A stretch of DNA of 64,000 nucleotides, taken from an uncultured Lachnospiraceae bacterium (lineage in GTDB: Bacteria; Bacillota; Clostridia; Lachnospirales; Lachnospiraceae). The notes under the pieces were generated by a model. The model saw only the letters and a program-made list of their open reading frames with translations. It had not been told where the DNA came from and did no database searches. Each line of letters begins with the position of its first letter. The stretch's first letter is position 1. The stretch spans positions 1 through 64,000 of the forward strand of contig CANSUS010000003.1 in the NCBI GenBank assembly GCA_947650155.1. The letters run 5' to 3'. Position numbers and translations under genes: made by a program. Shown one piece after another: positions 6,743 to 25,124 of this stretch.

Positions 6743-7876
6743 TTAATGGTCAATCGGCATATCTATAAAACTCTTCTGGATCTTAAAACTCCAGCTTTTC
6801 GGATCGTTCAAAATCTCCATAAATCTTTCCGTACTGTCCCCTCTTCCGTAGGAAAAACACTTTTTCCGGTAATTTTCCACATGGGAAATCGCATTTAATA
6901 TTTCTTCTTTCTTTTCTGAAACGTGCTGGATATTTGCATTCAGATTTGTATATCGTCCCGCCTGGCGGCTGCCAATATCAATGGCAGGAATCCCGTAAAT
7001 TCCGGTTTCCCTTATTCCCGCGCTGGAGTTTCCAATCATAAAGTCTGCATGCTGAAGCAGCACCAGAAAATATTCAAAACGTACCGACGGAAAAATCCTG
7101 AAATCGGAAGATCCTTTAAATCTTTCATATTCCGCAAGTATAATCTCTGAACCGTAATCATTGTTTGGATAAATGACCACATATTTTTTGCCGGAGTCGA
7201 TGACTGCCGACACAATCTGGCTGATTCTCTCTTTCATCCCTTCAAATTCTGTTGTGACCGGATGATACATTAACAGTGCATATTCCTCAAAAGAAATATC
7301 GTATCTTTCTTTTGTCTGCTCAATAGAAGGCAGAGAATCCGAAAGCATAATATCGATATCGGGAGAACCCACAATATGAATCCGTTCCTGCTCCTCTCCC
7401 AACTGGATCAGGCGCTGCTTTGCCTCCTGGTTGCACACTAAATGCAAATGGGCAAATTTCGTAATCGCATGCCGCATGGACTCATCGATCGTCCCGGAAA
7501 GTTCGCCGCCTTCAATGTGCGCCACCCGGATATTATTTAATGCGCCCACAATCGCCCCCGCCAGAGCGTCAATACGGTCTCCATGAACCACAATCATATC
7601 CGGGCATACTTTGCTTACATAGCCTGTCAGGTTGCAGATTACATTCCCCAGATCGTAACTCATAATTCCTCTGTTAGCCTGGGAAAAATCAACGTACACA
7701 TTACGATACCCGTCTTTTAGAACTTCCTCATATGTATTTCCGAATTTATCAATCAAATGCATGCCCGAGACAAAAATAAACGCCTCAAAATCCGCGCTTG
7801 CCTCCACTGCTTTGATCAATGATTTGATCTTTCCATAATCTGCTCTTGTCCCTGTAATAAACAATATCTTCTTCAC
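6743..7876 (-). CDS. neuC: Hydrolysing UDP-sugar 2-epimerase (NeuC/LegG type)
   Basis: A 377-residue GT-B-like enzyme of the UDP-GlcNAc 2-epimerase family. The hydrolysing branch releases UDP and gives ManNAc or its 2,4-diacetamido analogue, the precursor for Neu[16 protein letters not shown] at the N-terminus is typical of NeuC, as are [13 protein letters not shown] and [17 protein letters not shown]. The late [11 protein letters not shown] block binds the nucleotide. The start is GTG at 7876, overlapping the TGA of neuB as GTGA, so the two are coupled. Whether the substrate is UDP-GlcNAc or UDP-diacetamido-bacillosamine cannot be decided here; no LegB/LegC homologue is adjacent. Confidence 0.88.
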
Positions 7877-8913
7877 GATTCTATCATGCTGTAACTTACC
7901 TGCGTATCGTCAGGAATGTCACAAGCCGCCTTCTTTCCCAAAAGATTTTCATATTCCGCCGCCGGAATTTCTCCCGTTCCCGGTCTTTTCACCCAAAGAT
8001 TTTCTTTCGACAGGATCTCTCCCTTTTTGATTGGTTTAATGGAAACCACCGTTGCAAATGCAAAGTCTATTGTTACCTGCTCTTCTTTGATAGCCTCTTT
8101 GTGCCCGCCCTTCATAAGATGCACTTCTTTCGCGGCCAGAAGCAGTTCTCCAAGCTTCTCTTCATCCATCGAGCATACAATATCCGGCCCCACTCTGTCC
8201 ATCCGGTCCGTAAAATGCCTTTCTACCAAACAAGCGCCACGCGCCATTGCCGCAATACAGGCAGTATTATTTAATGTATGATCCGACAGCCCCACTGGAA
8301 TCCCGGGAAACGCATCCATCATTTCCTGCATGGCGCCCAGCCTCACCCATTCCGGTTTCGTCGGATAAAGGTTAGTGGTATGCATCAGCGCATACCCTAC
8401 CCCGTATTTTTCTAAAATATTGACTGCTTTTTCAATGCTTTTTAAATCGTTCATCCCTGTGGAAACGATCATGGGTTTTCCAAATTCAGCGATATGTTCG
8501 ATCAGCGGGTAATTATTTAATTCTCCCGAACCGATTTTATATGCCGAGACCCCGAAACGTTCCAGTCTGTCTGCTGCCGCCCTTGAAAACGGCGTACTTA
8601 AGAAAAACATCCCCAATGACTCTGTATAATCTTTCAATTCCCGTTCTTCTTCTTCCGACAATGCACCCTGCTCCATTACCTCATAAATAGATACGTCTGC
8701 ATTCCCCGGTTTTACCTTTTTAGCGGCTCCGCTCATTTCATCACTGCATACATGCGTCTGATGCTTAATCAGTCTGGCTCCTGCCCTGTGTGCCGCATCC
8801 ACCATCTCTTTTGCCACTTTTAAACTTCCCGCATGGTTGATTCCTATTTCCGGAATGACAAGACTTGGCACCTCTTCACTGATTTCGATCTTTCCTATAA
8901 ATAATTTCTTCAT
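7873..8913 (-). CDS. neuB: Nonulosonate synthase (NeuB/LegI type) with SAF domain
   Basis: A 346-residue synthase that condenses phosphoenolpyruvate with ManNAc or a 6-deoxy analogue to make a sialic-type acid. The TIM-barrel part runs to about residue 280: [12 protein letters not shown] at the start, STPFS and KIGSGEL in the middle, then GLSDHT and a metal-binding ERHFT block. Residues about 285-346 form the antifreeze-like SAF lid ([19 protein letters not shown]). AAGGAGGC sits just before the ATG at 8913. The gene follows a 244-bp gap that holds the large inverted repeat; neuC starts inside its stop. The 346-residue length fits the family. Confidence 0.92.
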
Positions 8914-8967: not shown

Positions 8968-9153
8968 GAACCCTTTTGAAGTAACCGTTCCGCCTTATGT
9001 CTGCCGCCGGATCAGGATTCTAACGTCACCGCGCTTTCGCTCTATTCCAGACGTAACAGTACTAGGCTCAAAAATACTTCGCCAAGTGCTGACGTCTTCC
9101 AAAGGGTTCCTTTTAGAATCCTGATCCGGCGGCAGACATAAGGCAGAACAGTT
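8968..9153 (-). repeat. Large structured inverted-repeat element
   Basis: Arms 8992-9023 and 9113-9144 are a perfect 32-bp inverted repeat. On the minus strand the stem extends nine more pairs (to 8983 and 9153) with two G-U pairs. The 89-base interior holds a small GCG/CGC hairpin (9031-9040) and a longer stem pairing 9049-9063 with about 9084-9097. A second inverted repeat, 8968-8981 with 9096-9109 (13 of 14), crosses the main stem, so the two folds exclude each other. There is no T run, so it is not a standard terminator. A MITE-like insertion, a structured RNA or an invertible segment are all possible. Confidence 0.7.
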
Positions 9154-9157
9154 TTCT

Positions 9158-10792
9158 TTAAGAAACCTCTGTAAAACCTGCCGTATAGTAATCTGAATGA
9201 TACAGCTCTTCTTCCGTTACATGCTCCATGATATAGGAAAGTACCTCTGAATTTAATTTTCCAATGTCTCCCTCATTCATATGGGCCGTATCCATTTTCC
9301 AGTTATATTCTATCATTTTTCTGGTAAAATCCTGCATTTTCACATCCGCTCTGCGGTTCTGGTAGGTAAAGATCAGTTTCGCTTTTCGCGTCTGTTCTTC
9401 GTTTAACGGTTCGATATCCTGTATCCGGTCTAAAACCTGCTCGTATTTTTCTCTGGTAAATGCATCCACTGTATACCCGAATCCTGAATACACTGCCTTC
9501 CCGGCCAGCACTACCGGTATTCCGAGGCAGCTGTACTCACAGCCGACCGTACCGTAAATCGTAATCACCACGTCCGCAAGCTGACCGATCAGCGCGCTGT
9601 TATATTCATTGGGAAATAAAAACATGTTATCGCTTTTATATTTGTCAAAAAGCCCTTTTATGATACCGGTTTCTCCATATTTCATTTCTGCAATCGGATG
9701 TTCTTTTATAATCCAGTTAGCATTCTCCTTATCCCGTACCATTTTCATGGTTTCTTCTACCCATGTATACGTATCTTCAAAGACCTGCTCATTGCAGCAG
9801 TGCGCGCATTCTGACAAAGTATGACAGCATACCACCACATTCTTTCTCCCTTTATGAAGATGCAAATATTGTTCCAGTTCTTCTTTGGAACCGTCTTTTT
9901 TCCCAATAAATGCGGCTTTACTGTCCCTCTCGTCCCCGTTTTTTGCCTGAAACCGTTCTAAAAGCAGTTCATCCGCCGCCTGTATATATTCTTCCTTCTC
10001 CTCTTTACTCATCTTTTTCAACTTTTCAACCAGCACGCCTCTGTCAAAGGCCGTCCAGGATATTTCCCCTACGCCCAGCTCCATATGCAGCGGCTGTCCG
10101 TTCAGTCCGCAGGAGCAGATTTCGACTCCCTTACTTTTTAACAGGGTAATCATCATGCCCTCATCAAAAACCAGATCGTCGTAAAAATAATATTTGGGGT
10201 TATATTTTTTACAGACTTTCGACAAAGTATGCAGCGTCCAGAAGCCTGTCCAGATTTTCTTGATGCAGGTTTTCGTTCTGGCGTTTCTGACCGTGTAAAT
10301 ATCCTTGTTAGTCCGTATAATCGTATCAAACATAAAATGCCCTACTTCCATACCCTGGTAGGTTAACTGCGCCATCTTTTTTCCGCTGCCGCCAAACAAA
10401 AAGAAGCCTGCCGCACGGAAAATGCCGTAAAGGCAGCCCGCCATATTTTGAAACATTTCCTGCTTCATGGAAAGATAGGAAATGCCGTAAGAAGCATAAA
10501 AATCAATCAGATCCTCATTGTATTCCCAATCCGTTACAACAGGCCGGCAGCCCGTCGCCTTTTCCAGTCCCTTTGCATAAAGCATTTTGGGCTGAAGCCA
10601 GGTGATCCATTTTTCCACCATGAAAAGCCCGATAAAAATAGTCCCCCTATCTTCGGCGGCATTTTCAGGTCCGGCAGCCAACTTGTCCCATATCTTTTTA
10701 TTTTTTTCACAAAAAAGCTTTAATGTCTTTTGATCGACTTCAAACCGCCCTACTAATTTTGCATTTATTTTCTGCTTTATCTTTTTAAACAA
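9158..10792 (-). CDS. KpsC/KpsS-like capsule glycosyltransferase, candidate nonulosonate transferase
   Basis: A 544-residue soluble protein. Its C-terminal half resembles the Capsule_synth (KpsC/KpsS) family, retaining transferases that use CMP-Kdo in Gram-negative bacteria. The visible signs are an IIKEHP motif near residue 365 and then a block with VITIYGTVGCEYSCLGIPVV followed by AGKAVYSGFGYT. The start is TTG at 10792, supported by GGAGG seven bases upstream. The gene opens the nonulosonate operon, with a strong promoter right before it. CMP-Kdo and CMP-nonulosonates are chemically alike, so transfer of the nonulosonate made by the following genes is a reasonable inference. No separate sialyltransferase is seen. 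The N-terminal 250 residues are not recognised. Confidence 0.65.
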   Translation of the reverse strand: MFKKIKQKINAKLVGRFEVDQKTLKLFCEKNKKIWDKLAAGPENAAEDRGTIFIGLFMVEKWITWLQPKMLYAKGLEKATGCRPVVTDWEYNEDLIDFYASYGISYLSMKQEMFQNMAGCLYGIFRAAGFFLFGGSGKKMAQLTYQGMEVGHFMFDTIIRTNKDIYTVRNARTKTCIKKIWTGFWTLHTLSKVCKKYNPKYYFYDDLVFDEGMMITLLKSKGVEICSCGLNGQPLHMELGVGEISWTAFDRGVLVEKLKKMSKEEKEEYIQAADELLLERFQAKNGDERDSKAAFIGKKDGSKEELEQYLHLHKGRKNVVVCCHTLSECAHCCNEQVFEDTYTWVEETMKMVRDKENANWIIKEHPIAEMKYGETGIIKGLFDKYKSDNMFLFPNEYNSALIGQLADVVITIYGTVGCEYSCLGIPVVLAGKAVYSGFGYTVDAFTREKYEQVLDRIQDIEPLNEEQTRKAKLIFTYQNRRADVKMQDFTRKMIEYNWKMDTAHMNEGDIGKLNSEVLSYIMEHVTEEELYHSDYYTAGFTEVS

Positions 10793-24326: not shown

Positions 24327-24336
24327 AGCACAAAAA

Positions 24337-24376
24337 ATATTGCACTGAAAAACGTTTCCTTTCTTCAGTGCAATAT
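24337..24376. terminator. Strong bidirectional Rho-independent terminator
   Basis: A perfect 13-bp stem pairs 24337-24349 with 24364-24376 around a 14-base loop. A T run follows on the plus strand, and an A run precedes it, giving a T run on the minus strand. It ends both the CotH operon and the long minus-strand operon coming from the right. Confidence 0.9.
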
Positions 24377-24380
24377 CTTT

Positions 24381-25124
24381 TTATGTAAATACTCTGTCAA
24401 TTTTCCTTTTTATATCTTCTGCAATTTTATCATTTCTAAAACCATGATATATATTTATTCTTGTATTGGGAAACTGATAGTATTTACCATTATACCTGGC
24501 ATAATAGCATCCATTCAGTTCGACCGCCATATTCAGTACTGCCTGTGCCTCATCATCCGGCAGATCCATGACGCTTACTTCCACTCCTTTTCGCATATAA
24601 GCACTCATACTGTGTTTAGGATTGGGCTCGTATATTCGGATTCCAAGCTCTGCAGCATACTCTTTATCTATATGCTGCCTTTCCGCTATATTCTTTATTT
24701 GAACATCGTTTTTGCCAATTCTGCCCTCTAACAGTTTTTTCCTGCATTCGTTCCAACTCTTTAAACTAATACAGATGCCTCCTGTTTTATAGGCATACGC
24801 ACATAAAACAGAACTCTCCTTCAATAGTGCAAAAGGGACGATGTCATTTTCTTCATCATTCAGGGCATCTGATGCCTGCAGCACTGTCAAAAGCAGCCTT
24901 TGATCCTCTTTATCTTTAAAATCCTGAAGCAATTGTATCCATTTATAGTCGGGCGCTGTTTCAAAATCTCGGTCAATATTGCCGGTCAATATCCCTGTAA
25001 CATTTTTTACTCTGTCGGATTTTAGATCCCGATAAACCTCCAGCCATTCTCTTACCGCGCTCATTGCCAGTTCTTTATTCTCAAATCGATATCTGAAAGA
25101 AATATCATTCATTACTAATTGCAT
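24381..25124 (-). CDS. Unknown protein, third gene of DUF262/ATPase trio
   Basis: A 247-residue soluble protein that I do not recognise. It is rich in charged residues, lacks membrane segments and has no clear nuclease or binding motif. A conserved-looking region near residues 85-125 (YAYKTGGICISLKSW) and a C-terminal block (YYARYNGKYYQFPNTRINIYHGF) are the best candidates for an active surface. The ATG at 25124 is chosen because GGAG lies five to six bases before it; another ATG at 25136 has no good site. It follows the ATPase gene by 34 bases and is the last gene before the terminator. AT-rich composition like its two partners suggests the three moved together. It could be the effector of a defence-type system, but nothing in the sequence proves this. 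Confidence 0.75.
   Translation of the reverse strand: MQLVMNDISFRYRFENKELAMSAVREWLEVYRDLKSDRVKNVTGILTGNIDRDFETAPDYKWIQLLQDFKDKEDQRLLLTVLQASDALNDEENDIVPFALLKESSVLCAYAYKTGGICISLKSWNECRKKLLEGRIGKNDVQIKNIAERQHIDKEYAAELGIRIYEPNPKHSMSAYMRKGVEVSVMDLPDDEAQAVLNMAVELNGCYYARYNGKYYQFPNTRINIYHGFRNDKIAEDIKRKIDRVFT

Follow-up and report, generated by a model that had tools for sequence, protein, structure and literature searches.

What is a long inverted repeat doing in the gap between a KpsS-like gene and neuB? The original prediction placed perfect 32-bp arms at 8992-9023 and 9113-9144 of the window, the whole 64-kb stretch of DNA analysed. It offered three readings, namely a structured RNA or switch setting nonulosonate gene expression, a MITE-like insertion, or an invertible segment, and named a search for further copies and an analysis of covariance as checks. 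The arms are present as described. They lie between two minus-strand genes that Pfam assigns to NeuB (7873-8913) and to Capsule_synth / KpsS-like (9158-10792), and they form the perfect part of a repeat whose arms reach 41 nt each (8983-9023 with 9113-9153) at 95% complementarity. The two arm mismatches become G-U pairs when the minus strand is read, as foreseen; the gap to the upstream stop codon had been put at seven bases, whereas this stem, P1, starts 4 nt beyond the TAA of the KpsS-like gene at 9160-9158. Fold z-scores are −11.2 on the minus strand and −13.5 on the plus strand, with 0 of 200 shuffles equally stable. The runner-up among short-range inverted repeats in the window measures only 21 nt at 90%; it occupies 24332-24381 with an 8-nt loop and is terminator-like.

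A second inverted repeat crosses the first, pairing 8968-8981 with 9096-9109, and had been read as the basis for two mutually exclusive folds. Its 13 of 14 pairs are there, and the loop is matched at 13/14 by none of ~300 random 42-mers from the window. The repeat is peculiar to the neu copy, other full-length copies tested reaching 8-12 of 14, and all but the last base of its left arm falls beyond the element, to which the repeat thus does not belong. Being external and unique to this copy, it no longer provides a basis for a switch.

Ends, copies and frameworks of the element

The neu inverted repeat is one copy of a MITE-like mobile element and no device of the neu locus. The CM match in the window covers 8997-9145 on the minus strand with 133 bits, and the element delimited by its terminal repeats (Table 1) has a length that recurs exactly, 175 bp between the ends, in four other copies (L003, L007, L009 and L144). 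It is short, multicopy and without a transposase gene, and terminal inverted repeats of the form GTAACAGTTCAGCC stand at both ends. The target duplication of the neu copy is eroded to 5 matching positions of 8. Across ten other copies and hairpins, 8-bp target duplications match at 59/80 positions (permutation p < 5e-5); in a test of duplication length with 20,000 permutations, the value for 8 bp was never reached, while 7 bp gave p = 0.003 and 9 bp p = 0.04. Dispersed copies, terminal repeats and 8-bp duplications are the defining features of a MITE, and the prediction of a MITE-like insertion is borne out.

Table 1. Features of the neu copy and its flanks in window coordinates
Feature	Coordinates	Strand	Remarks
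Whole mobile element	8981..9155	- (strand of the conserved RNA fold)	175 bp; window coordinates from TIR alignment
Left terminal inverted repeat	8981..8994	+	GTAACCGTTCCGCC; family form GTAACAGTTCAGCC
Right terminal inverted repeat	9142..9155	-	degenerate, AAAACTGTTCTGCC as read on minus
Left flank, site of the target duplication	8973..8980	.	CTTTTGAA; matches right side 5/8
Right flank, site of the target duplication	9156..9163	.	CTTTAAGA; includes KpsS-like stop codon 9160-9158
P1 long closing stem, 5' arm	9113..9153	-	
P1 long closing stem, 3' arm	8983..9023	-	
Inner extension of P1, 5' side	9105..9110	-	GGAACC, partner ~9025-9030; alignments A1, A3
P2, 5' strand	9081..9104	-	one GGA of the symmetric GGA/GGA internal loop at 9098-9100
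P2, 3' strand	9042..9067	-	second GGA at 9046-9048
P3 hairpin	9033..9040	-	GC-GAAA-GC, GNRA tetraloop 9035-9038
Crossing repeat arm	8968..8981	+	only last base inside the element; outside the conserved structure

The genome to which the window belongs (G000) holds ~10 copies, the majority with cores that are 95-100% identical, plus fragments. Aligned in one orientation, these copies show a constant core between arms that vary from copy to copy and are still complementary. A search of the same genome for GTAACAGTTCAGCC ends returned 30 places, among them core-less hairpins of 36-69 bp with the same ends and 8-bp duplications (L142, L145, L153, L154 and L126), which may be either truncated forms of the element or hosts that carry no core. 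As to an autonomous element sharing these ends, no two ends among the matches listed lie 1-3 kb apart. At two half-elements, L125 (G000 C2:12522) and L131 (G000 C18:47318), GGCTGAACTGTTAC appears to supply the TGA stop of the adjacent gene, the stop being read by eye as GGC TGA from the terminal repeat.

The related genome G018 shows that a common core is carried by two or more MITE frameworks, which differ in their ends and in the length of their duplications. Its type A copies are asymmetric and ~314 bp long, end in TAGGTAATTGCGAAA and are flanked by 10-bp duplications (65/90 positions, p < 2e-4, neighbouring lengths not significant). Its type B copies end in GTAACAGTT, as in the window's own genome, and two of them are flanked by perfect 8-bp duplications, TATCCGTG and TATTATAA. 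The flanks upstream of P1 in this genome are AT-rich.

How the arms turn over is illustrated by two copies in genome G610, 91% identical over 146 nt, that occupy adjacent gaps of an apparent fatty-acid operon (L203 1501-3701). They have the core and inner stem in common, while their outer arms are unrelated yet each complementary; judging from this pair, insertion seems to bring about replacement or fresh formation of the stem ends. In sister species the corresponding gaps are short and lack the element. A different structured-looking insert, AGCTCTTAGTGTTGCTTAGCGAG...CGAGCGGTGCAACA..., sits at the place of the G610 element in the fabH-like/fabK-like gap of two sister species (L206 1320-1515 in G600 and L208 1360-1515 in G570), and may represent a relative that has diverged, or else a second family.

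The conserved fold

The consensus fold of the minus strand consists of P1, a three-way junction, the mismatch-bearing P2 with its GGA/GGA loop, and the GNRA hairpin P3. Inner hairpins had been proposed at 9031-9040 and about 9049-9097; both are real and conserved, and they correspond to P3 and P2, respectively. The inner extension of P1 is made of tandem G-A pairs in the neu copy and of A-U pairs in relatives. Core identity in related genomes of the host family ranges from 71 to 81%.

Pairing is maintained through extensive sequence change. Alignment A1, with 29 copies in the orientation of the window's minus strand, was not fitted to a structure model; it has 90.8% of its cells paired and 30 of 44 pairs changing on both sides, with a covariation score of 0.380 against 0.150 for shuffled and at most 0.140 for slid controls. 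In 109 distinct copies from many genera, an alignment that was fitted to the model and whose counts therefore lean towards the fold, 96.0% of cells are paired, the score is 0.819 (0.198 shuffled, at most 0.115 slid) and double-sided changes number 1518 (392 shuffled, at most 331 slid). The analysis of covariance thus answers in favour of a structure, with 43 of 44 pairs changing on both sides and pairing kept. All four Watson-Crick types occur along P1, whose sequences are wholly different between copies while the arms remain complementary; in this stem only pairing seems to matter.

The strand that folds can be read from the asymmetry of these changes. Among wobble or near-wobble cells in the paired columns, the minus-type strand shows 111 G-T against 35 A-C. 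Of 112 aligned copies, nearly all have a P3 loop of the GNRA type, as GAAA, GAGA, GGGA, GCAA, GGAA or GCGA; its closing pair covaries from C-G to U-A, and junction residues are conserved too. The G-T excess and the GNRA loop point to the minus-type strand as the folding strand. RNA is favoured but not proved as the folding molecule over single-stranded DNA, which would leave a similar trace in the sequences, and covariation together with strand asymmetry suggests that the element is transcribed. The motif CCCCUUGGAAGAC may resemble the 3' end of 23S rRNA. A role as terminator was considered and rejected: by eye, no conserved U-run follows the stem on either strand.

The prediction of a structured RNA therefore stood, carried by massive covariation, while its extension to a nonulosonate switch fell with the unrelated genes that flank other copies and with the crossing fold found in this copy only. 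Scatter with target duplications had been expected to refute a functional RNA; the scatter was found, and MITE and structured RNA proved to be both true rather than alternatives. Neither the window nor ten other loci matched Rfam 15 at the gathering threshold, nor did the neu copy at E up to 10, and a literature search that covered few subscription journals returned no description of the element.

Distribution, neighbours and candidate enzymes

The element is widespread within one bacterial family and was seen in no other in the order- and class-wide samples. Scanned with model R1, a sample of the host family, Lachnospiraceae, contained it in 154 of 397 genomes and 136 of 334 genera. Matches in an order-wide sample (29/295 genomes) all fell in the host family, as did those in a class-wide sample scanned with model R2 (11/391). 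In genome G018, contigs selected by number and totalling 240 kb yielded 48 matches, which corresponds to ~600 copies per genome. Phage collections, plasmid collections and exact-pattern scans of viral contigs gave no match.

Copies are mostly intergenic, and the neighbouring genes are unrelated and differ from copy to copy. Distances and orientations are approximate, as genes were called by a simple ORF rule. When a gene end lies opposite the 3' end of the element, as read on the minus-type strand, the two are separated by a median of 24 bp family-wide and 81 bp in G018; for the other arrangements the family-wide median is 109-110 bp. Between co-directional neighbours, the minus-type strand is antisense to both 52 times and sense 30 times, so that the neu copy, in sense orientation, represents the rarer arrangement.

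Of 33 pairs of copies less than 700 bp apart, 31 are divergent, whether the genes around them run in tandem, converge or diverge. Such close pairs occur at L105-L119 and L247-L266 in G018 and also at L088, L096, L099, L104, L170-L174 and L183. This is the inverted doublet arrangement of REPINs, and single copies are common too. A composite transposon was considered and rejected, as the intervals inspected between divergent copies hold unrelated genes (RmlD-like and deacetylase-like, names given by eye) or none. One such interval, L120 9029-9835 (G013 C85), contains tandem repeats of ~148 bp that encode repeated KRHKKQVGNLPG-like peptides.

Three candidate enzyme families were compared between carriers and non-carriers of the element, and none tracks its presence. 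The ends of IS66 begin with GTAA and its duplications are 8 bp, and GTAA ends are seen in the host family's IS66 copies. The likeness stops there: the IS66 ends of the host family read GTAAGCGTCAAATAA, not GTAACAGTTCAGCC, the presence of IS66 is unlinked to the element (10/40 carriers, 9/34 non-carriers), and the gene was not found in G018 and several other carriers. An IS66-mobilised MITE was rejected on these grounds. Y1 transposases occur in 21/40 carriers and 20/34 non-carriers, and a Y1_Tnp match at E <= 1e-5 is absent from 19/40 carriers, the window's own genome included. Reverse transcriptase occurs in 19/40 carriers and 21/34 non-carriers; its gene was not found in about half of the carriers, several many-copy ones included.

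Explanations, parallels and significance

The element is probably a MITE-like transposon, non-autonomous, in which a structured RNA module absent from Rfam makes up the body. Its DNA would be moved in trans, by a resident transposase that works on the terminal repeats, and the module would be kept since the element could persist only if the minus-strand form folds. It would most likely act as RNA upon read-through, protecting, processing or insulating the host transcript, and insertions near gene ends would thereby be tolerated and able to spread. At the neu locus, insertion would have taken place at the KpsS-like stop codon, and the element, lying between the KpsS-like gene and neuB, is probably co-transcribed in a functional sense. 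Its 41-pair stem would there lend itself to RNase III-type processing or to stability of the kps-neu transcript, by analogy with Correia elements and ERIC. The excess of antisense over sense placements, 52 to 30, fits a simple read-through role poorly. A wider reading is put forward tentatively: that one large bacterial family hosts a new class of selfish structured RNAs, with a core of junction and GNRA hairpin and a closing stem of free sequence, which several unrelated MITE frameworks have taken up, which often occurs as divergent doublets, and in which the folded RNA rather than the ends is selected.

In the strongest rival, selection would act on the fold of single-stranded DNA: one strand would fold during replication or transposition and be recognised by a transposase or recombinase, as in attC or REP/REPIN. 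Strand-specific covariation would fit a folded single DNA strand equally, GAAA loops of the GNRA type and G-A pairs are stable in DNA too, and both the divergence of 31 of 33 close copies regardless of gene context, which recalls REP doublets, and the position near gene ends are consistent with it. We nevertheless regard it as unlikely: Y1 transposases, the partner family of REP, do not track presence, the whole range of GNRA variants and the strong excess of G-T over A-C look more like RNA than DNA, and the module resides in MITEs with quite different ends, so that its recognition by a single transposase is not needed. Considerably less probable is a selfish element driven by its RNA, which would serve as a ribozyme or as a template for copying back into the genome, the MITE ends being secondary. 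The conserved junction residues and GNRA hairpin, a sequence-free closing stem like that of several ribozyme families, and a core that is near-identical while outer arms vary between copies all agree with such an element; the patchy occurrence of reverse transcriptase among carriers does not, fixed-length duplications and terminal repeats point to a DNA transposase, and no known Rfam ribozyme was matched.

A riboswitch or attenuator setting nonulosonate gene expression would account for the position in the KpsS-like/neuB gap, the sense orientation and the strong fold. It is very improbable given that the element lies beside many unrelated genes, in up to hundreds of copies per genome, with no association to one regulon, that the alternative fold is unique to the neu copy, and that the sequence has no built-in terminator-like end. 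To an invertible segment flanked by recombination sites, suggested by the long perfect inverted repeat around 89 bp, we give almost no credence: the core faces the same way relative to the arms in 20 of 20 informative type A ends of G018 (0/20 inverted), and the arm sequences, unlike recombination sites, are not conserved. The preferred reading remains the MITE-like transposon with a structured RNA body.

The element belongs among bacterial MITEs, and its conserved RNA module is, to our knowledge and by Rfam, undescribed so far. QMITE1 and QMITE2 of Coxiella burnetii have 7-9 bp duplications, 23-29 bp TIRs, a core of 113-145 bp and a very stable fold, and are a source of small RNAs, according to the portion of PMC10969869 consulted; they are confined to one species, and that portion describes no cross-genus covarying fold. 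BOX, RUP and SPRITE of Streptococcus pneumoniae are MITE-like repeats of Firmicutes that fold stably and are transcribed with operons as extensions at the 5' and 3' ends (PMC3049150). Compared by description, they differ in being limited to a few streptococci and, in layout, by the modular boxA-B-C. The Correia elements or NEMIS of Neisseria are likewise small and intergenic, with terminal repeats and long hairpins in mRNA, and RNase III cleaves their transcripts at the repeats (summarised in PMC10969869). Sequence and host group are different. We know of no three-way junction with a GNRA hairpin kept by cross-genus covariation in these elements, nor of a closing stem of free sequence.

ERIC or IRU elements, ~127 bp in length, share the intergenic position, the palindromic form and the high multiplicity. 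ERIC is a sequence-conserved repeat, whereas the present stem, compared by description, is conserved in pairing only. Insertion of ERIC at gene 3' ends can alter transcript levels in an orientation-dependent manner (PMC10969869, PMC3049150). The nearest parallel to the divergent doublets is provided by REPINs, non-autonomous inverted pairs of short hairpin-forming repeats in high copy number, whose REP units measure 20-40 bp (PMC3733652). The present single units, in contrast, are 175-314 bp with target duplications, and Y1 does not track their presence. REP units are tied to RAYT (Y1) transposases.

Bacterial MITEs usually pass for relics of DNA, with hairpins that simply follow from their ends. 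In the present element, compensatory change has kept an internal RNA fold across many genera despite total turnover of its stem, riding in MITEs with different ends, which raises a testable question: is structured RNA the selected cargo of MITE spread, or its driver? The element adds an RNA family that was missing from Rfam and that reaches about one copy per 5 kb in one species, a density likely to affect transcript ends and genome assembly.
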